A DNA stretch of 64,000 nucleotides. Origin: Halovenus aranensis (GTDB lineage Archaea; Halobacteriota; Halobacteria; Halobacteriales; Haloarculaceae). A program made the position numbers and the translations under genes. The notes under the pieces are model-generated. The model saw only the letters and a program-made list of their open reading frames with translations. It was not told the origin of the DNA and made no database searches. Each line of letters starts with the position of its first letter. The stretch's first letter is position 1. Below are positions 45,135 to 59,818 of this stretch, one piece after another. The DNA lies in contig NZ_FNFC01000012.1 of NCBI RefSeq assembly GCF_900100385.1, positions 62,001 to 126,000 on the forward strand. The letters are read 5' to 3'.

Positions 45135-46856
45135 TCAGTACCTTTCAGTTGTACACCGTATAAAACGGGTACACTGTTGGACGACTGGGCCACGTCCATC
45201 ACTACCATCCGCATTCGACTCGGGCACGGCGACAGCGGGTGCTATGACAGCCGACCCACCACCAGCGGTCGCCGCTGCTTGGCCGGGTTCGTAGGCGACG
45301 ATGCCAGACCCGAATGTGAGCCGCGTGCCAGCGGAACGGCCAGCTAGCACGGTTTCACAGTCCCCCGTGTAGGAGGAGGTAAAACCGTGGTCTAGCTCGT
45401 CCGTGCCGCTGAAGAACACACGGGCGACGTTCAGCGCCCCGATGTAATCCCGGTCGCTCTCGAACCCACACCGGGCGTTGTCACACCGGAAATGCCCGCC
45501 CCACCAGTGTTCTTGCTGGTGGTCGGGCGATTTGCAGGTGTGGCCGGTTGAGCCACACCGGGGACACGACCGGCTCGTCCCCTGTGGATAGACTCGTTCA
45601 ACAGCTACTCCAGCGCAGTCTGCTCGGTATTCGATGTTCTCGATGATCTCACGCCGCGCCCACGACGACAATTCCCACGACAACGTGCCTTCGTCACTCG
45701 GTGGGGAGAGCGACCGCAAATCTTCGTGGACAATCGCGTCCACGTCGTAGGTGAGCGCAAGTGCGAGAACCTGGTTGGCTACGTCGTGTGTCAGTTGCTC
45801 GCGCTTGTGCCGAATCTTGCTGTTTACCCGCTCGTATTCGCTCTGGATGTGCGCGAACTCGTCAGTATGCGAGCGACCATCACGGCACAACGCGGCAAGG
45901 CGGTCGTTCAGTCGAGTTCGTTCCCGGTGGAGTCGTCGCATCCCGTCACGGTCAGTGAACTGGATGAAATGTGGCGTAGACAGTTGTTCGCCGTCGTCAG
46001 TGACCACCACGGCAGTCATATCTTTCCGCATCCCAGCATCGAGGGCCAGCACGCAATCAACATCGTCGTTCATCTCTGTCTGATCGACTTCGACGGGAAA
46101 GGACAGTTCGTAATAGGCGTCACCGGTCTTTCGCCGGGAAGGTTGGAACTCAGGAGCCGAGAGATCACCGTAGGACAGTAGGTCGTGAAACGCTTCGTAG
46201 CCGCCGCGCTCGTACTCCGTCCACGACCAGTCTCCCCGTGTCTCCGGCGACGGCGTGTCTGGCGTCTTGAGCCGGATGATCAACATCCCACTGTCGGCGT
46301 CGTACTGGTATTTGACGGCTTGGCCGCTGGTTGGGCCGTCGTCTGCAGAGAACGGCAAGACGCCGCTATCGTACTCTGGACAGTCCTGCATTTCGAAATA
46401 CGTGGCTGGATACGCCCCGTGACGGTCGTAGTAGCTGTTGAGTTGGTCGATGAGGATGTCAACGTAGCCTGACGAGAGGTAGTCGCCGTCGTCCCAGAGC
46501 TGTTCTTTGATTTGTCGGCGGTGGATGCGTCGGATTTTGTGGTCGGGCAACACGCTCTGGATAGACTGGAAGGCGTCTCGGCGGTCGGCGTGACTCCGAA
46601 GCGTTTCACCGACTTTCTGCAAGATGCACCGTCGAAACCGCGAGGGAAGGTACAGGTCGAGTTCTTCGAACGGGTCGTGTTCATCGAAGTATTTCCACGC
46701 CTGATGGGATGTGTCGTCAACGCCGTCTAGATGGACTGGCGTCCAATAGTCTTTGAGGACATGGTTGGCGACACGACGGGAGAGTGTTGCCAGTCGCTCG
46801 AATCGTTGGTCGTCTTCATCTGGGAGACAAATTGGGAGCGAAAGGTGGTCACTCAT
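45135..46856 (-). CDS. tnpB: TnpB-type RNA-guided nuclease of an IS607-type element
   Basis: A 573-residue TnpB, larger than the IS1341-group ones here. Catalytic triad: Asp273 in VLALDAGMRKDMTAVV, Glu378 in AIVHEDLRSL and Asp470 in ESDRDYIGALNVAR. The zinc knuckles are CPRCGSTGHTC and CDNARCGFE. The N-terminal WED/REC-like part (1-260) is intact. The C-terminal tail (about 490-573) is Ala/Gly-rich and probably overlaps the guide-RNA coding region. Its start overlaps the end of the upstream serine recombinase by eight bases, the usual tnpA-tnpB arrangement of IS607. All three catalytic residues are present, so it may be active. Confidence 0.87.
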   Translation of the reverse strand: MSDHLSLPICLPDEDDQRFERLATLSRRVANHVLKDYWTPVHLDGVDDTSHQAWKYFDEHDPFEELDLYLPSRFRRCILQKVGETLRSHADRRDAFQSIQSVLPDHKIRRIHRRQIKEQLWDDGDYLSSGYVDILIDQLNSYYDRHGAYPATYFEMQDCPEYDSGVLPFSADDGPTSGQAVKYQYDADSGMLIIRLKTPDTPSPETRGDWSWTEYERGGYEAFHDLLSYGDLSAPEFQPSRRKTGDAYYELSFPVEVDQTEMNDDVDCVLALDAGMRKDMTAVVVTDDGEQLSTPHFIQFTDRDGMRRLHRERTRLNDRLAALCRDGRSHTDEFAHIQSEYERVNSKIRHKREQLTHDVANQVLALALTYDVDAIVHEDLRSLSPPSDEGTLSWELSSWARREIIENIEYRADCAGVAVERVYPQGTSRSCPRCGSTGHTCKSPDHQQEHWWGGHFRCDNARCGFESDRDYIGALNVARVFFSGTDELDHGFTSSYTGDCETVLAGRSAGTRLTFGSGIVAYEPGQAAATAGGGSAVIAPAVAVPESNADGSDGRGPVVQQCTRFIRCTTERY

Positions 46857-47397: not shown

Positions 47398-48552
47398 CTA
47401 AAGCCGTGGGGTTCCCCCACTGGGGGTTGAATCCACGAGTAGCGGGAGGTTCGCAGGTTCGTCGTCGCGTTGGACGATGACCTGCGTTTCGGGCTGTGCC
47501 AGTACAGCCCCCGCCTCGGACAGCGGTTTCGAGAACTTGCCCAAGGCTCGTTTGCCGATATTCAGCGCACCGTTCTTGTCTGCGTTGTCATCAAGCCCAC
47601 ATTCGGGACACTCGAAACGTCCCTGCGTTGCTCGGACACCTTCGCAGGCACAGCGGTTGCACGTCTGCGACGTGTCGTATTCTTCGACCAGTTGCACGTC
47701 GATACCCGCGTCGTGGGCTTTGTACTCGATGTAGTTGAGCAGGCGAGCGAACGGCATCTTGTGGGTCTTGTCGTTGACGTACCGCCCTTTATCGTTGTCC
47801 TTGCGAATCCCGCCGAGGTCGCCCACGACGATGATTGCGTTCCGTTCTTCGGCATCCTCCACGATTTGCCGAGCAATTTTGTGGAGGCGGTCGTCCACCT
47901 TCCGCGCTTCCGCGTCACCGATACGCTCGACCACCTGCTGTCCTTGTCGGGGTTTCGCTTTCCCGATGGACTTGCGGAGTTGCTTGTAGTGTTCGCGGAT
48001 ATGACGCACTTCCTCGCCGTAGAACGTGGTTTTGCGGTCAGAGAGGAACGCGCAGGTAGCGACCCAGCGTGCGCCCATGTCGATAGCCAGCACGTCGTCG
48101 TACTCGTCTTGGACGGTCACAGACCGCTTGACGACGAGATGCACGTACCAGTCACCGTCACGGCGCACCAGTTCGCTGTCTCGAAGATTCCCCTCATGGA
48201 CGAGCTGTTCGTCCTTTCGTGGGACGTGGGCGGGACACCAGATGGAGTTGCCTTGTCCTTTGTCAGGGTCATAGACGGGGACTTTCACCCACCACGACGA
48301 GAGAACGGTGTCTTCGTCGTAGGCCACGTCGAACACGTCGTTGCGAAGGACGACAGGTTGTTCCGTACCGGGATTTGGGTCTTTCTGCCGTTGTACTTTC
48401 GACGCCTGCTGGTCGGTTGCAGAGTACAGGTCAGCGTCTCCACCGTGTACCTCAGTCTGGAACGCCTCGTACTCACGGGCGAGCAGGTCGGCTTTCCTGT
48501 TGGTCAGCGAGTGGAGTTTGACCCGCACCGTGGTTGAGACGTTCCGTTGCAT
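47398..48552 (-). CDS. tnpB: TnpB-type protein with altered RuvC-II motif
   Basis: A 384-residue TnpB of an IS200/IS605 element. RuvC-I Asp158 (VLAIDMGARWVATC) and RuvC-III Asp325 (DDNADKNGALNIGK) are present, as are zinc knuckles CNRCACEG and CPECGLD. At RuvC-II the usual Glu-Asp-Leu reads IIVVGDLGGIR, so the catalytic Glu is Gly244. A Glu (Glu291) occurs in VEEYDTSQTC, where the other TnpBs here have Pro (for example VEPDHTSQRC). This may be a relocated catalytic residue, as described for some TnpB lineages, or a nuclease-dead protein. It lies two bases after tnpA. Confidence 0.87.
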   Translation of the reverse strand: MQRNVSTTVRVKLHSLTNRKADLLAREYEAFQTEVHGGDADLYSATDQQASKVQRQKDPNPGTEQPVVLRNDVFDVAYDEDTVLSSWWVKVPVYDPDKGQGNSIWCPAHVPRKDEQLVHEGNLRDSELVRRDGDWYVHLVVKRSVTVQDEYDDVLAIDMGARWVATCAFLSDRKTTFYGEEVRHIREHYKQLRKSIGKAKPRQGQQVVERIGDAEARKVDDRLHKIARQIVEDAEERNAIIVVGDLGGIRKDNDKGRYVNDKTHKMPFARLLNYIEYKAHDAGIDVQLVEEYDTSQTCNRCACEGVRATQGRFECPECGLDDNADKNGALNIGKRALGKFSKPLSEAGAVLAQPETQVIVQRDDEPANLPLLVDSTPSGGTPRL

Positions 48553-48554
48553 GA

Positions 48555-48944
48555 CTACTCACCTGCTTGGGCGTCGATGTACTCCTCGATTACTCCGCTG
48601 GATACGTCGCCCGCACTTGAGACGAAGTACGAGCGCGTCCACAGCGACGGCAAACCGAAGTCAAACTCGTCGCGGAGGTGGCGCGAGGAGTAGCCTTTGA
48701 CCTGTTGCATTATCTTGTTCGGGGCGAGCGTCGGGTCGCCCGTGATGAACAGGTGTACGTGGTCGGGGCGAATCGCCAACTCCAAGATTTCGAGGTCAAG
48801 TTCGTCGGCTTTCACCTCGATGAGTTCTTCGAGACGGGTGCGTACCTCGCCCTCAAGTACCGATTTACGGTATTTCGGACACCAGATGAAGTGGTACTGG
48901 AGTTTGTGGACGCTGGTACGTTCCCTGTCAAACCCACGAGGCAT
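48555..48944 (-). CDS. tnpA: IS200/IS605-family Y1 transposase TnpA
   Basis: A 129-residue HUH single-strand transposase. The core is HFIWCPKYRKSVLEGEV, the metal-binding HUH motif is RPDHVHLFITG, and the catalytic Tyr is expected in GVIEEYIDAQ at the C-terminus. It cuts and joins the hairpin-bearing element ends as a dimer. The length is normal. I choose the ATG ending at 48944 (MPRGFDRERTSVHKLQ); an upstream ATG adds eight residues. Together with the adjacent tnpB it makes an apparently complete element. Confidence 0.9.
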   Translation of the reverse strand: MPRGFDRERTSVHKLQYHFIWCPKYRKSVLEGEVRTRLEELIEVKADELDLEILELAIRPDHVHLFITGDPTLAPNKIMQQVKGYSSRHLRDEFDFGLPSLWTRSYFVSSAGDVSSGVIEEYIDAQAGE

Positions 48945-49234
48945 CGTCAGTATATAGATATTACTCACCTAAAGATGTTACGTAAGCATCCAACCCCAGC
49001 CGTGGCTACGAGCGTGGAGAGATTCCCAGTTGTCGGCTTCATCCCACGGCTAAAGCCGATGGGCTTTCGCCTCGCTACCGCTGTAAATTCAACCAAATCA
49101 GGTATGAGAAGAAGAACCAATCAAATCTCCATCAGTATCTGCCCAAGATTAGAGAAGTCTCGATGAAGTCGCTTGAAAAGCTCCGTTGAACTCGTTATTT
49201 CGGCCGGTTCTGCTGAATGAGCCGCGAAGCGCGC

Positions 49235-50036
49235 TCATTCAGCACCGAGTTCGTATCCTTCAGCCCACATGCGTAGCTTTTGGAGCCCTTTCCACATCGT
49301 CTCCCAACCTGGTGGCGGATCTGAACCACGATCAAGATAACCGCCGAGTTTAGCGACGCTCACTGCGTATGATTTCCCATCTTGGTCGCTCAATTCTGGA
49401 AATTTCGTTTCCAGAATTGTGCGCTCTGCCTCACTCAGCAGGACCGCCGGAGATACTGAACTATCACCACGAGCAAGTTCTCGTAGCTCCAGAACTTTCC
49501 ACGCGATCACTGAATACATGCTCAACAAAACTTCCATCCACTCCCAAGTCTGCAGTTGCCGTTCTTCGATGTTACAGCCACTCTTGAGTGCTTTATCCCA
49601 GTCTTCAATTCGCTAGCAGAGGCCGTAATAGTCAATGAGTGTCAGCGTCTCCTCCAACTCTTCGACCGATTCAGTGGTGAGCAACACCCACTGAATCGGG
49701 TCGTCATTTTCATAGACCTCGTCGACTCTCACGACATTCACCTCAATTGAACCGTCTTGATCAGGATTATTCCTTGGCGCGCGCAACTCACACGTTCCAG
49801 TGGCTATCGACAACTCCGCTGTTCTCGCTTCGCGCCCACCTCCCTGTTGAATCTCGATTGTTTTGCGACCTTGAACTGCCGAGTTCATCCCCAAGTTGAA
49901 CCAATCGGTCAGTCAGGCGCTTGTCGCCAAACTCAGCTGACCGAAACTCCGTTCGAATCCACCCGGAAACATCCATGTCACACAGCTGTCCATCCTCATC
50001 GAGTTCTGGCTTCCAACTCCGTAAGCGGCGTCCCAT
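49235..50036 (-). pseudogene. IS4-family transposase, degraded
   Basis: Pieces of one IS4-type transposase remain. The N-terminal part reads WIRTEFRSAEFGDKRLTDRL up to about 49877. A large deletion and frame change at about 49875 then joins VQGRKTIEIQQGGGREARTA. An in-frame TAG at 49613-49615 precedes the C-terminal part ending in LGGYLDRGSDPPPGWETMW. Most of the catalytic DDE domain is lost. A 10-bp hairpin (CTGAATGAGC/GCTCATTCAG) lies at its 3' end near 49214-49244. No function can remain. The bases 49087-49234 hold only this hairpin. Confidence 0.8.
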
Positions 50037-50179: not shown

Positions 50180-51526
50180 ATGCTCCCAGCGGTGCCTAAA
50201 CGTCCTCCAATAGAAGTCGTTAATCAGGGCCAACTTTGGGTGATAGAAGAATATCGACGTACCGGCAACACGTATTCAACACACGATAGCCAGATGGAGG
50301 CCGTCCGCGCAGCGAAATCGAAGATGGACGAAGAGAATCATCCCTGCCTTCTCCATTGGGGGACACCAAACAGTGTCCGAAATGTGTTCTGGAACCCACT
50401 GTTTGAGTGTCTACATGTTAAATATGATGAACTTGCTGATACATGGGCGATTGTGCCCGCGAAGACACCGTGTGCGATCGCAGTCAATCAATCAAAAAAA
50501 GAGGCATACAAGCAAGCCAAACGGATCCAGCGCGACTACAATTTCAAAGAACTGTGCGCGTTTACCCGTGAAGGAACGAGCAAGGAGACACGCGACCATC
50601 GCTTTCTGCGATACGATATTACACAATCCGGCGTCCGGTTCGATAGAGCAGCGACAAAATCGTCCGACTCAACGAACGCTGCCACTGCAGACACAGACAC
50701 TGGCACCGAACCGAGCCTCTCATACACTGAGCCAGCAAGTCTAACGCAACTTGATCTTTCGATACCAGACATCACGAAAGTTGAACTCATCAACACAAGT
50801 GACGTAGTTCTCCGCTATCGAACACCATGGGGTGACGGGACACACGCAGAGGTACTGCTGATCTCACAGAAACATGCTTCCAATGGAGCGGTTCAGAACA
50901 GGTTCAACACCGCTGTCAATGCGTGGGAACAGAGCGACCAGTCAGCATATGTCGCTCCGATATACGACTCGGGAAGTGAGCCAACACCGTGGGTCGCTTA
51001 TCGATCCGGGAAACAGACACTCGCAGATGTCGGGCTAGATTTGCCTCTTGATACCAGATTCGAACTTCTTGATCAATTGTTGCGCGGGGCAATGACAGTG
51101 ACAGCCGAACACGACCAAGTGTGTGGGATTCTGCCTGCAAATATCGGTCTCCAGACACAGGATGGAGGATGGCGGGCGTTGATGGCAAACTGGGGGATTA
51201 AATGGAGGACCACCACCGCAGTTGGCCAAGGATACACGTCGCCGTTTACTGCGCCTGAGCAGCTTCGCGGAACACTAACCGCTACGACCTGTGTCTACCA
51301 ACTCGGCGCCGTCGCGTACTGGCTGCTCTGTGAACAGCCCCCAGTCGATGCAACTGCACCCGAGCAAGCACTTCGGGAGGGCGACATTCAGTCCCCAGAG
51401 ACAATTTCGGGAGTCTCAGCAGAGCTTGACCGTGTAGTAGAGAAAGCGATCACCAGAGCGCCCGCACAACGCTATCAAACAATTGAACAGTTCCGGGCCG
51501 ATTTGATCGCCTCTTCGACCAATTGA
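50180..51526 (+). CDS. DUF2188-like repeats fused to a degenerate protein kinase domain
   Basis: A 448-residue protein. Residues about 10-60 (LWVIEEYRRTGNTYSTHDSQ) and 85-140 (TWAIVPAKTPCAIAVNQSKK) look like two DUF2188-type modules. A Thr/Asp linker follows. Residues about 200-448 resemble a eukaryote-like protein kinase: VCGILPANIGL at the catalytic-loop position lacks the HRD aspartate, NWG replaces DFG, TAPEQLRGT keeps the APE motif and CVYQLGAVAYWLL replaces DVYSLG. The final part (LDRVVEKAITRAPAQRYQTI) is a typical kinase C-lobe. It is therefore probably a pseudokinase that binds or senses rather than phosphorylates. A TATA-like aatttatac lies only about 17 bases before the ATG, so the start is not certain. 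Confidence 0.72.
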   Translation: MLPAVPKRPPIEVVNQGQLWVIEEYRRTGNTYSTHDSQMEAVRAAKSKMDEENHPCLLHWGTPNSVRNVFWNPLFECLHVKYDELADTWAIVPAKTPCAIAVNQSKKEAYKQAKRIQRDYNFKELCAFTREGTSKETRDHRFLRYDITQSGVRFDRAATKSSDSTNAATADTDTGTEPSLSYTEPASLTQLDLSIPDITKVELINTSDVVLRYRTPWGDGTHAEVLLISQKHASNGAVQNRFNTAVNAWEQSDQSAYVAPIYDSGSEPTPWVAYRSGKQTLADVGLDLPLDTRFELLDQLLRGAMTVTAEHDQVCGILPANIGLQTQDGGWRALMANWGIKWRTTTAVGQGYTSPFTAPEQLRGTLTATTCVYQLGAVAYWLLCEQPPVDATAPEQALREGDIQSPETISGVSAELDRVVEKAITRAPAQRYQTIEQFRADLIASSTN

Positions 51527-51648: not shown

Positions 51649-52545
51649 ATGAGTTCGGGGGAAGACGACCAACATCCACGGTCGATGCGCCACAAACAGG
51701 TCCTCGATGTCGCCGCAGAGAATCCAGACGCCTCCATGGACGAACTTGCTTCGATGGTGCCGAGTGCGACGACCGAACTCGTTGAACGGACTCTCGACGA
51801 GTACGGCGACCCAGCGGCCGAAAACGACCAAGCGACTGCCGACGAGACAGGCGCTGACGAGTCTTCGCCAGCCGACACACCAGACGAGCGCACAACGGCT
51901 GAGACAGCTGTCACCGGCACAGCGATGACTGATGGCTCGACAGCCACAGCCTCACAGTCTGAAACGAGTACAGAGACTGAGGCAGCCACAACCGACGCTC
52001 CCGAAAGTGAAGCGACCACTACGGAGGAGTCAGCGGACGGCAATGGAGACGACAAACCAAGCCGGGACGACCTCTCGGCGAAAGAGATTGACGTGCTCAG
52101 GGTTATCGCCGACAAGCCGACTGCGACACAGCGTGAAATTGGTGACGAGCTCGGCGTATCGAGCGCAACGGTCAACAACCGTGTTAACGATATTAAGGGG
52201 TTCGAATGGAGCGATCGCGTGGCATTTACTGAAACTGTTCTCGAGACAGACGTCACAGAGGGCGACTCCGACGATCAGTCCGCGTCACCCACAGCGACGG
52301 CCCTTGAGCCGATGCTTGCGGACGTACTGACACAACTCGAAACGCTTGAGGATCGGATCGAGGCTGTCGAAGGGTGTCTCGAAACTGTTGAGCCATGCGC
52401 AGCGGAGGCGACTGGTGCGGACGGTGGGGCGCTGACGGCTGTCGACGAACCGGAACTAGTTCACAAGGCTCTCTGTGCGTGTCTGGAGTCGGACCGCTTC
52501 TCCGAAGCCGAAGAACTACAATTGGTCCGAGAAATGGTAAACTGA
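51649..52545 (+). CDS. Double-HTH regulator, copy 1
   Basis: A 298-residue putative DNA-binding protein. Residues 8-50 form a helical motif (RHKQVLDVAAENPDASMDEL, MVPSATTELVERTLDEYGDP). A Thr/Ala/Ser-rich linker follows (50-145). Residues about 148-195 are a winged helix of the MarR/Lrp type (TATQREIGDELGVSSATVNN). A coiled coil follows (VLTQLETLEDRIEAVEGCLE), and the C-terminus ends in ELVHKALCACLESDRFSEAE. A paralogue is at 58871-59818. It lies 122 bases after the pseudokinase gene, with a very AT-rich promoter between them. Targets unknown. Confidence 0.78.
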   Translation: MSSGEDDQHPRSMRHKQVLDVAAENPDASMDELASMVPSATTELVERTLDEYGDPAAENDQATADETGADESSPADTPDERTTAETAVTGTAMTDGSTATASQSETSTETEAATTDAPESEATTTEESADGNGDDKPSRDDLSAKEIDVLRVIADKPTATQREIGDELGVSSATVNNRVNDIKGFEWSDRVAFTETVLETDVTEGDSDDQSASPTATALEPMLADVLTQLETLEDRIEAVEGCLETVEPCAAEATGADGGALTAVDEPELVHKALCACLESDRFSEAEELQLVREMVN

Positions 52546-52892: not shown

Positions 52893-52999
52893 GTTGGCCC
52901 CAAACAGTCAATTGAGTGAGACGCCAACGACAGGTATGCCCGACCTTCGAGGGGTACGGTCGGCCTGCTCGTCGGCGGCCTCGCGCTGGCGCTGCTGTT

Positions 53000-53041
53000 C
53001 GCCGGACAGGTCCTGGGCTTCGCCGGACAGGTCCTGGGCTT
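53000..53041. repeat. 21-bp perfect tandem duplication
   Basis: cgccggacaggtcctgggct plus t is repeated twice in direct succession. In one plus-strand frame it encodes FAGQVLG twice within a hydrophobic segment (LLVGGLALALLFAGQVLGFA). The GC-rich piece 52930-53055 has no start codon and looks like a fragment of a membrane-protein gene joined to the tnpB fragment that follows. Confidence 0.65.
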
Positions 53042-53058
53042 CGCCGCATTTTGGCTTG

Positions 53059-53578
53059 GAAGAGCAATCACAAGCGCCGTGAATACGAACGTCAACGTGC
53101 TCGCCTCCAACAAAAAGGTACTCGAAGCGCACACCTCACCATCCAATCCATCGGTGACACCTTCGCCAACTGGTCAGAGGACTTCTTACATCACGCCTCG
53201 AAGGAACTGGTTACGGAAGCCGTCTCTCACGGGTGTACGACTATTGTCTTCGAGGACTTGGAAAACATCCGTGAACGCATCTCGGACGCCTCGAAATTCC
53301 AGCAGTGGGCGTTCAACGAACTGAAACGCCAAGTCGAATACAAGGCCAAACAAGAAGGTATTCTCGTTGAAACTGTCCATCCAGCATATACTAGTCAACG
53401 GTGTTCTGAGACTGGTTGCGGTTTCACTCACGAGGATAACCGGGATGGGGACGTGTTCGTGTGCCAGAAATGCAGCAAAGAGCTACACAGCGACTACAAT
53501 GCGGCGCGAAACATTGCACACAAATTCATCCAGAATCGGCGCAAGTCTGGTTCTGGAGGGGTAACCTATCATCTGTAA
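53059..53578 (+). pseudogene. tnpB: Truncated tnpB (IS1341-type), C-terminal part
   Basis: The frame reads KSNHKRREYERQRARLQQKG, with RuvC-II Glu in TIVFEDLENIRERI, zinc knuckles CSETGCGFTH and CQKCSKE, and RuvC-III Asp in HSDYNAARNIAHK, then a stop at 53578. The N-terminal half including the RuvC-I Asp is missing, replaced by an unrelated GC-rich fragment. The right end survives: hairpin CCTCGGC-GTTT-GCCGAGG (53674-53691) followed by GTAGTTGATAG. The nuclease is dead, but the right-end RNA region may persist. Confidence 0.8.
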
Positions 53579-53754: not shown

Positions 53755-55141
53755 AAATGCAGGAGAAAACCAACCCCTTCAGGGGTTGGATGAATCCGTA
53801 AGCTATTGAGCCAATCTACCGGCAAACGCTCGGCCTACTCCCCAATACTTTTGAATCTATGACGTTACATATAACATATGGAGGTGCGGCGTACTGTCCC
53901 GGTAAAACTCGATGTGGACAGTGACGACGCCGTACTCCTTGAAGACACCGTAGACACGTTCCTGTGGTGCGCTCAGTACGTCACAGACCATGCGTTCGAG
54001 GGCGAATACGTCACGACGAGCAAGACCACACTTGACGACGAAACCTACGACGACGTGCGAGAAGCCACAGACGGTTTCAACGGTGGACTGGTACAAGCTG
54101 CCCGCAACAAGGCCGCCGAAGCCTGCAAAAGCGTCGTCGCCAAGTGGAAACAGGGCAAGAAGGCATCGAAACCCTCCTTCACGACTCCACACGTCGTCTA
54201 CGACCACCGCACGGCGACGTTTCACGACGACTACGTGAGTCTCGCCACCACAGACGGTCGCATCGAAGCCGACTACGTGCTGCCAGATGAGGACAGCGAC
54301 ACGCCCCACGCAAAATATCTATTCTCCGACGAGTACGAGACGACAGGGGCAGAGCTACACCACAAACACGGCAAATGGCAACTTCACATCCACTGCAAAA
54401 AGGACGTGGAGTCTGACACGCCGGAACAGGCAACGACCACGCACGGAACGGTGCTTGGCGTTGACCTCGGCGTGAACAACCTCGCCGTTACCTCGACTGG
54501 TACGTTCTGGACTGGCGACGAATTCGACCACTGGCGACGAGAATATGAGAAGCGGCGTGGAAACTTGCAAGAACACGGCACACGATGGGCACACGAGAAT
54601 ATGCAGGCGGTCGGACGCAAAGAGGATGGTCGGTTCAAGATGACGCTTCACCGCATATCGAACGAGTTGGTAGCTGAAGCCCGTAACCACGATTGTTCGG
54701 TGATAGCGTTCGAGGATTTGAGCGACATTCGTGACCGCACTGGCGCGTCGTGGGGGCACAAGTGGGCATTCAACCGGCTCTACGAATACGTCGACTACAA
54801 AGCTGAAAAATACGGTATCACGGTTGAGCAAGTTGACCCGGAGAACACCTCTCGACGGTGTTCACATTGTGGGTTCACACACCCAGACAACCGCGACGGT
54901 GAGAACTTTGAGTGTCTGAAATGCGGCTACGAGAACCACGCCGACTACAACGCGGCGAAGAACATCGGTCTGCGGTATCTCCGTCGGAACCAAACTGGCG
55001 ACGACGGAGGCGCACCCTTGGGCGTGCGCTTGAACAGCGGGATGGTGAACGTGAATGGAGAGTATGAACCTCCTGCCGATGATTCGGCCAGAACGGGAGT
55101 CCACGCTGAATCCCACCCGTTCACGGGTGGGTAGCTCAAAC
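53755..55141 (+). mobile_element. Complete-looking IS1341-type element
   Basis: The left end starts near 53755 with gcaggagaaaacc, then the hairpin CCAACCCC-TTCA-GGGGTTGG (53771-53790). The right end has CCCACCCG-TTCA-CGGGTGGG (about 55115-55134) followed by TAGCTCAAACC. A decayed copy of the left end is at 35492-35588. The only gene is tnpB (53878-55134), whose 3' end overlaps the right-end hairpin. Bases 53692-53754 hold nothing else. Confidence 0.8.
53878..55134 (+). CDS. tnpB: TnpB-type RNA-guided nuclease, IS1341 group
   Basis: A 418-residue TnpB with all catalytic residues: Asp in [15 protein letters not shown], Glu in [13 protein letters not shown] and Asp in [14 protein letters not shown]. 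The zinc knuckles are CSHCGFTH and CLKCGYE. The N-terminus [13 protein letters not shown] is the standard family start, and cttacatataac just before the ATG is AT-rich. The C-terminal residues and stop lie inside the right-end hairpin, so the guide RNA can come from the 3' part of the message. It is the best candidate for an active TnpB in this window. Confidence 0.92.
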
Positions 55142-58870: not shown

Positions 58871-59818
58871 ATGAGCACAGATGACGAGGACAGCCCGTAC
58901 CCTCGGTCGGTGCGCCACAAGCAGATCCTCGATAAAGCCGCGGCTCACCCCGACGCCTCGATGGACGAGTTCGCGTCGATGGTGCCGAGCGCGACGACCG
59001 AGCTGGTTGAGCGGACGCTCGACGAGTACGGGGACCCGGCGACTGCCGGGGAGTCGGATGCGTCCGACGGGGGGGACGAACAGGGCGTAGCTTCGGGGGA
59101 AGCTACGGAAACGGAGCCGACTGACGGGGACGGAACTGAAATGACAGAGACAGCCGACGACTCGACCGAGGCACCAGCAACGCCGGAATCCGGCGAACCA
59201 GGCGATGTCGATGGCGGGGAGGACTCTGCGGTCGCGTCGTCCGTCGACCCTGCACGCGACGGCGACGAGCACACCGAGTCCGCTGGGGAGACTGACGCTG
59301 CGAGTGGAGACAGCGATAGCACGCACGCTGGAGACGACGAAGACACCGTGCCGCGAGCGGACGAGTTCTCGCCGAAACAGCGGGAGGTTCTCGACGTTAT
59401 CGCCGCCAATCCGACAGCGACACAGCGGGAGATCGGCGAGGCACTCGGCGTCTCGAGCGCGACGGTCAACAACCGCGTCAACAGCATCGACGGTTTCGAG
59501 TGGGCGGATCGTGCCTCGTTTGTTGACGAAGTTTTCGAACTGGACGCGACTCTCGAATCTGAAACGACAGCGGGGAATCCAGTGGCACCCGGGGAGGTCG
59601 AATCGGCGCTGGCCGATATCGAGAGCCACCTGACGGCGCTCGACGAGCGCATCGAGCGCCTGGAAGCGGGCCTCGACCAGGACGAGGGGCCGTCTGAAAG
59701 CGTTGCGTCGGGACTCGACGACCCCGAACTGGTCCACAAAGTCGTCCACGCGTGTCTCGAATCCGAGCGGATTACCGAAGACGAGGAGCTACGGTTGTTG
59801 CAGCAGATTCTGTGTTGA
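58871..59818 (+). CDS. Double-HTH regulator, copy 2
   Basis: A 315-residue paralogue of the protein at 51649-52545. The N-terminal motif (SVRHKQILDKAAAHPDASMD, MVPSATTELVERTLDEYGDP) is nearly identical to copy 1. The linker (about 55-160) differs in sequence but keeps the acidic Thr/Ser/Asp composition. The winged helix (TATQREIGEALGVSSATVNN) and the coiled coil (ALADIESHLTALDERIERLE) match. The C-terminus (DPELVHKVVHACLESERITE) matches too. This is a GC-richer version than copy 1. Targets unknown; both copies flank the transposon-rich zone. Confidence 0.8.
   Translation: MSTDDEDSPYPRSVRHKQILDKAAAHPDASMDEFASMVPSATTELVERTLDEYGDPATAGESDASDGGDEQGVASGEATETEPTDGDGTEMTETADDSTEAPATPESGEPGDVDGGEDSAVASSVDPARDGDEHTESAGETDAASGDSDSTHAGDDEDTVPRADEFSPKQREVLDVIAANPTATQREIGEALGVSSATVNNRVNSIDGFEWADRASFVDEVFELDATLESETTAGNPVAPGEVESALADIESHLTALDERIERLEAGLDQDEGPSESVASGLDDPELVHKVVHACLESERITEDEELRLLQQILC

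Follow-up and report, generated by a model that had tools for sequence, protein, structure and literature searches.

The locus described here raises the question of what a protein of the kinase fold does in a haloarchaeal cell when the residues for phosphate transfer are gone. The gene is found at positions 50180-51526 of the window, i.e. the whole stretch of 64,000 nucleotides of Halovenus aranensis DNA that was analysed. As the first-pass annotation had proposed, a protein is encoded here, by one intact open frame on the forward strand (448 codons and 448 amino acids, stop included in the coordinates). The host genome is 3.29 Mb in length, is assembled in 56 contigs and is 99.7% complete. 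The GC content of the gene is 52.7%, vs 59.4% for the window. The gene and its parts, with the evidence for each in brackets, are as follows.

50180..51526, + strand: pseudokinase gene (open frame; 13 full-length homologues in named genomes; dN/dS of relatives)
50192..50653, + strand: N-terminal tandem module, residues 5-158, DUF2188-like below the cut-off (profile A3; AF2 secondary structure)
50654..50734, + strand: variable linker, residues 159-185, probably disordered (pLDDT and low identity)
50735..51523, + strand: kinase-like domain, residues 186-448 (VIA match to PknA 4ow8; phmmer match to PknB)
50855..50872, + strand: beta3 strand, residues 226-231, LLISQK, without Lys at the VAIK position (alignment; Lys in 0 of 21 members)
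51119..51142, + strand: HRDLKPEN equivalent, residues 314-321, VCGILPAN, the catalytic Asp replaced by Gly316 (alignment)
51188..51196, + strand: DFG equivalent, residues 337-339, NWG, Asp replaced by Asn337 (alignment)
51251..51259, + strand: retained APE motif, residues 358-360 (Glu in 21 of 21 members)
51290..51307, + strand: DVYSLG equivalent, residues 371-376, CVYQLG, Asp replaced by Cys371 (alignment)

An AlphaFold2 model built from 14 aligned natural sequences shows residues 186-448 as a protein-kinase fold with an N-lobe and a C-lobe. Block pLDDT values are 70-94 across residues 201-448, but 61-64 at residues 391-410, and pLDDT is below 50 across residues 141-197. The top PDB matches of the model are of the PknA/PknB types (4ow8, 3f61); the VIA comparison with PknA 4ow8 gives a Z of 24.5 (rmsd 3.0, 252 residues aligned). 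At the sequence level, residues 322-444 match Mycobacterium PknB (phmmer, E 4e-13). The Pfam Pkinase model (PF00069) has no match to the window protein at E<=1, but of 14 members of the family it detects nine at E<=0.1. A kinase-like domain with a retained C-lobe had been read from the sequence at the outset. The structure prediction, once run, yielded a kinase fold and not a model without one, and the C-lobe is borne out by the predicted fold together with the PknB match.

The resemblance to PknA/PknB-type kinases (4ow8, 3f61) includes the predicted fold, the C-lobe sequence, the APE Glu and the C-lobe Arg (Arg431 in the family alignment). Unlike PknB, the window protein is missing the beta3 Lys, the alphaC Glu and the HRD, DFG and DxW aspartates in register; the first two absences are likewise seen in the family alignment. 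In place of the membrane and PASTA parts that PknB carries, the window protein has its N-terminal tandem module. The losses of the HRD and DVYSLG aspartates and of DFG, as well as the preservation of APE at 358-360, had been noted in the first-pass annotation, and all hold on alignment (VCGILPAN, CVYQLG and NWG). Among the intact haloarchaeal kinases gathered, the DFG site is mostly DWG. Pseudokinases are defined by loss of the beta3 Lys, the HRD Asp and/or the DFG Asp (PMC12599244). All three residues are absent from the window protein. In this protein and in its four nearest alignment rows a Lys is present slightly further on, two to three residues past the beta3 site; with the other residues absent, the displaced Lys alone would not be expected to restore catalysis by the known mechanism.

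The losses are a family property. In all, 21 distinct haloarchaeal proteins share the layout of the window protein, and among these the beta3 Lys and the alphaC Glu are each found in 0/21, the HRD Asp in 4/21, the DFG Asp in 2/21 and the DxW Asp in 4/21. The four proteins with the HRD Asp are Halorientalis members, those with the DFG Asp are two others, and in no full-layout member do any two of the three (beta3 Lys, HRD Asp, DFG Asp) occur together. In alignment A1, just two acidic positions of the kinase-like part are invariant, Asp197 and the APE Glu360.

With the window protein as query, the full layout is present in 15 of 391 haloarchaeal genomes, its own included. The named full-layout relatives are from Haloarcula, Halovenus, Halorientalis, Salinibaculum, Halorubrum and a Haloferacaceae bin, and the gene is therefore considered haloarchaeal. 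One full-layout copy is split (G332): the homologue at L044:6733-8137 is in two overlapping frames, which reflects either a disrupted allele or faulty assembly.

A total of 179 kinase-like domains was reduced to 99 before counting, by dropping repeats of identical sequence. These were gathered mainly by their likeness to the window protein, and proportions among them are not a census. Seven domain rows that read IDFN after correction of an alignment shift were classed as intact. A tree of 98 domains (rows of at least 200 residues; bootstrap not fully settled) places the 21 full-layout proteins in one clade (100/99). This clade is part of a starred clade of 42 rows, which also holds the nearest relatives of the kinase-like domain. 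The full set of three catalytic residues occurs in none of the 42, nor in any row of another starred clade, which has 17 rows (0/17). The genomes with the full layout belong to family groups f1 and f4; since these are intermixed in the tree, horizontal transfer is likely. A phage or plasmid origin was rejected: a pattern search hit 14 stretches of viral contigs, of which none encoded a relative, and of 15 matching plasmid records none covers more than 80% of the query, those listed all being in the kinase-like part.

Purifying selection acts on both parts of the gene in three lineages of relatives. This comes from a Nei-Gojobori script applied to six pairs of relatives of the window copy, where dN/dS is 0.17-0.24 over the whole gene in all six, 0.15-0.20 in the module and 0.17-0.26 in the kinase-like part. 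The linker has the lowest identity of the three regions in each pair. For the window copy itself, no close relative was present among the sequences fetched for selection analysis. The initial reading of the gene as encoding a pseudokinase thus appears well founded as far as sequences and models can indicate: motifs are lost, a kinase fold is predicted, the family has 21 members and relatives are under purifying selection.

The N-terminal module is about 150 residues long and has a predicted beta-beta-beta-alpha-beta(-beta) order of elements that occurs twice (AF2). DUF2188 (PF09954) is its one Pfam match, over residues 12-49, at 16.7 bits against a gathering score of 22; the second unit has no DUF2188 match in Pfam. 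Of 14 members of the family only two reach E<=0.1 with DUF2188 (best value 0.004), and the similarity between the two units is weak in an hhalign comparison (P 0.013 over 24 columns). Because the score is under the cut-off and the halves match weakly, the term 'DUF2188-like' is used rather than DUF2188. Thus, of the claim of two DUF2188-like modules, the repeated order of elements stands, but the Pfam resemblance is confined to a single match below the cut-off. A model of the module alone, from a Haloarcula mannanilytica sequence, has a mean pLDDT of 65.9, a modest confidence, and Foldseek finds no match to it at E<=0.001. The best VIA Z values are all below 8: 5.6 (7f45, an anti-CRISPR protein), 5.4 (6lvb) and 4.9 (2k8e, YegP). 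With a model of modest confidence and Z values under 8, no function is drawn from these matches.

The module is not confined to the pseudokinases. Its profile (A3) finds 17 of the 391 haloarchaeal genomes, and the two extra genomes, G066 and G232, encode kinases (L045, L046) with a tandem module that is 41% identical to that of the window protein. Unlike the window protein, these have intact catalytic residues (VAVK, HLDLKPEN and DWG), a kinase domain from another branch, and the module at the C-terminal side, i.e. in reverse order; the G066 copy scores 102 bits with PF00069. Placing them in one clade with the 21 proteins costs 106 log units and is rejected (AU p 1.3e-7), and for this reason two or more separate fusions of module and kinase domain, with opposite arrangements, are probable. 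That in turn suggests that there may be a working, functional link between the two. The swapped modules form one clade (99/99) with modules that stand alone; row L089_SOLO2, in a wrong frame, was disregarded. G066 and G232 each also carry a solo module plus a third module copy. In L047:5717-9658 and L048:5724-9682 there is a run of four genes: an archaeal helicase (DEAD), a solo module, an NYN-domain gene and a TGT/PUA-domain gene, where the labels are from Pfam for the G066 copies and from similarity for those of G232.

Bacterial pseudokinases that have lost all three motifs are known, i.e. ActPs1-3, GLW and CP1 (PMC12599244). In the loss of the three catalytic motifs with the fold kept they are like the window protein; they are set apart from it in that the window protein is archaeal and has an N-terminal tandem module. 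GLW pseudokinases have GLW in place of HRD (PMC12599244), and this is found in none of the 21 members; the window protein has VCG. The haloarchaea also contain degenerate kinases with other partner domains, many of which keep the HRD His and/or the DWG Asp. Two of these, L022 with a beta-propeller and L018 with a hydrophobic N-terminus (by eye), are in the same starred clade of 42 rows, and L026, with HEAT repeats, is in the second degenerate clade instead. A search of literature available outside subscription found no published description of a module-bearing pseudokinase family in the text accessible; further papers cited are PMC7226565, PMC1262709, PMC2652253 and PMC12704722. The first-pass remark that such proteins are little described in archaea is in keeping with this sparse literature, but should be qualified in view of the many degenerate kinases of haloarchaea.

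The surroundings of the gene in the window are rich in transposon sequences, as originally described:

45135-46856, 47398-48552, 52916-53578 and 53878-55134: TnpB-type ORFs (TNB domain), around the gene
48555-48968: IS200 Y1 transposase, adjoining one TnpB-type ORF
49235-49537: Tn5-type dimerisation remnant, below the Pfam cut-off
49788-50036: Tn5-type DNA-binding remnant
51649-52545: HTH gene

The HTH gene starts 122 bases past the stop of the pseudokinase gene, the distance given in the first-pass annotation. Its label as a double-HTH regulator is only partly sustained: Pfam finds one clear winged helix (141-183), but the N-terminal match is faint. A paralogue, 51% identical, is 6 kb away at 58871-59818, the two being wHTH proteins, and beyond it the host genome has no match of the HTH gene at E<=0.001. 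A tie between the two genes is not supported: the HTH gene is adjacent to the pseudokinase in 0/31 fetched loci, which include six second copies of the same contigs, four swapped or solo modules and some that end near the gene. The sole HTH relative in these loci is 7.3 kb away on the other strand (L053, Halovenus salina). The HTH gene was thus rejected as a functional partner as a general rule.

In G367, G301 and G384 the pseudokinase is in one common setting with shared neighbours; in other lineages the neighbours mostly differ. Since neighbours are mostly not conserved, gene context gives no pathway. A gene for a universal stress protein (USP) is found within about 1.3 kb of the pseudokinase in three lineages, i.e. 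L038; L039/L044; and the Halorientalis group L040, L041, L056 and L057 with second copies L058 and L060:

L038:8481-8918, L039:8514-8960, L040:4645-5076, L056:2386-2814 and L057:5733-6161: USP genes

This is more frequent than density alone would predict: at about 11.5 USP matches per Mb, and for chances per lineage of 2-4%, the probability of three or more is 0.002-0.011 if 12 independent lineages are assumed. Because the family was picked after looking, the USP as a partner of the pseudokinase is a lead only.

A common view of pseudokinases is that they assist active kinases, and the question is whether the host cell has such a kinase. In the host genome PF00069 gives two matches, both under its cut-off, which we take to be proteins of the RIO type (HGDLRGEN) and the ABC1/UbiB type. 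A profile of seven intact haloarchaeal kinases ranks the window protein at the top, followed by the RIO-type protein and a frame on contig C27. The latter frame (L147; G000:C27:33500-39500, minus strand; 690 amino acids) has a second degenerate kinase-like domain without recognisable HRD or DFG, is more degenerate than the window protein, and continues as a PQQ/BamB-like beta-propeller (by eye). By these two profiles, no intact-motif PknB-like kinase is found in the host genome, a draft in 56 contigs where one may for that reason have been missed.

The seven-kinase profile was run on ten genomes, nine with a full-layout pseudokinase and G066. Matches with intact motifs are listed for G301 and G066. 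None of those listed for the host (G000), G365, G135, G072, G165 and G180 is intact as a PknB-like kinase, and for G365 the pseudokinase is listed alone. The latter is also the case for G290, yet other PF00069 proteins are present there, presumably of a TerY-P-like kind. A cluster of this genome (L183; G290:C1:281000-288500) contains several divergent kinase-like proteins (by eye), and we take its genes to be PP2C-like, VWA-like, FtsZ-like and TerY-P-like. G168 has 11 matches, of which 10 were classed, and all three catalytic residues occur in 0/10 (C42:50751 is unclassed). Kinase-like genes also form islands of 30-35 kb: one in G168 (L121/L122; C42:49500-80000) has no intact member among those classed, and one in G037 (L133/L134; C1:1465000-1499500) is mostly intact. 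In genus group g3, seven genomes (two being Haloarcula) encode a kinase with YRDLKPEN and DFN, its open frame 411-433 amino acids long.

How, then, might the protein work? The reading that is somewhat favoured is that of an adaptor which has the protein-kinase fold but no catalytic role. In its favour are the predicted fold, the loss of catalytic residues throughout a single clade of 21, purifying selection on both parts and the second fusion of the module with a kinase domain. The tandem module would recognise a ligand, a peptide or a nucleic acid; the kinase-shaped domain, with its phosphate-transfer residues lost and its C-lobe core kept, would dock a partner protein; and binding on one side would alter what the other side can bind. 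That the pseudokinase binds partners, and what these might be, is what we infer. Counting against this reading, the sequence leaves room for ATP binding or an unusual transferase activity, four Halorientalis members have the HRD Asp and two others the DFG Asp, and the displaced Lys is shared by the window protein and its nearest rows.

The alternatives each take up a part of these data. The protein could regulate an active Hanks-type kinase of its own cell by allostery, the module being the sensor. The fusion of the module to intact-motif kinases in G066 and G232 points in this direction; so do the seven g3 genomes with a YRDLKPEN/DFN kinase, which the sister-kinase model could fit, and RIO or ABC1 kinases might still serve as the partner. 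However, within the limits of the draft assembly, the host genome does not suit a model with a sister PknB-like kinase as the target, since neither profile finds one with intact motifs there. Furthermore, G365 lists the pseudokinase alone, and the other matches in G135, G072, G165 and G180 are without the catalytic residues. The regulator is thus unlikely, and a free-standing binding switch is more likely than a regulator of a sister kinase, because no active PknB-like kinase seems to be needed in the cell. SelO and SidJ catalyse another type of transfer with the kinase fold. By analogy the window protein could be an atypical enzyme that keeps nucleotide binding and uses non-canonical residues. 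The conserved core would allow for this, and SelO and SidJ, counted among bacterial pseudokinases, are a precedent (PMC12599244). The idea looks quite improbable, however, when neither Asp position nor the beta3 position is constant within the family and, among acidic residues of the kinase-like part, Asp197 and Glu360 alone are invariant (A1).

A relic of a decaying kinase, carried along by transposons, would account for the location of the window copy amid transposon genes and remnants, for its low GC content relative to the window and for the homologue in two frames (G332). But the window ORF is full-length, relatives are under purifying selection in three lineages and G367, G301 and G384 share neighbours, so that decay is very doubtful. 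Most improbable is a component of a phage-defence system, with a kinase like that of PD-T4-6, PglW or MAD6. Kinase models of PADLOC (E down to 4e-13) and NCBIfam do match the window protein in its C-lobe. The best match for PD-T4-6, for which PADLOC gives no cut-off, has E 3.8e-13 and covers residues 287-444 only. The NCBIfam scores, over the generic C-lobe, are 32.1 bits against 460 for MAD6 and 31.7 against 990 for PglW, and membership in these two kinase families was rejected as the curated cut-offs are missed by far. The HTH gene has weak matches only to defence models, most of them in the HTH region.

The non-catalytic adaptor may be part of a larger picture. It is conceivable, and put forward tentatively, that haloarchaea evolved a pseudokinase signalling layer of their own, with the window protein as the module-bearing branch of a radiation. 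Such a radiation would comprise at least two large clades without intact motifs, with fusions to the tandem module, HEAT repeats or a beta-propeller. It would be retained in some genomes in which searches found no intact PknB-like kinase, the fold serving purely as a binding switch. Counts of archaeal kinases made by fold or family alone may overcount catalysts. With a maintained family in a cell where no intact PknB-like kinase is found, the kinase fold's own role in archaea would become addressable.
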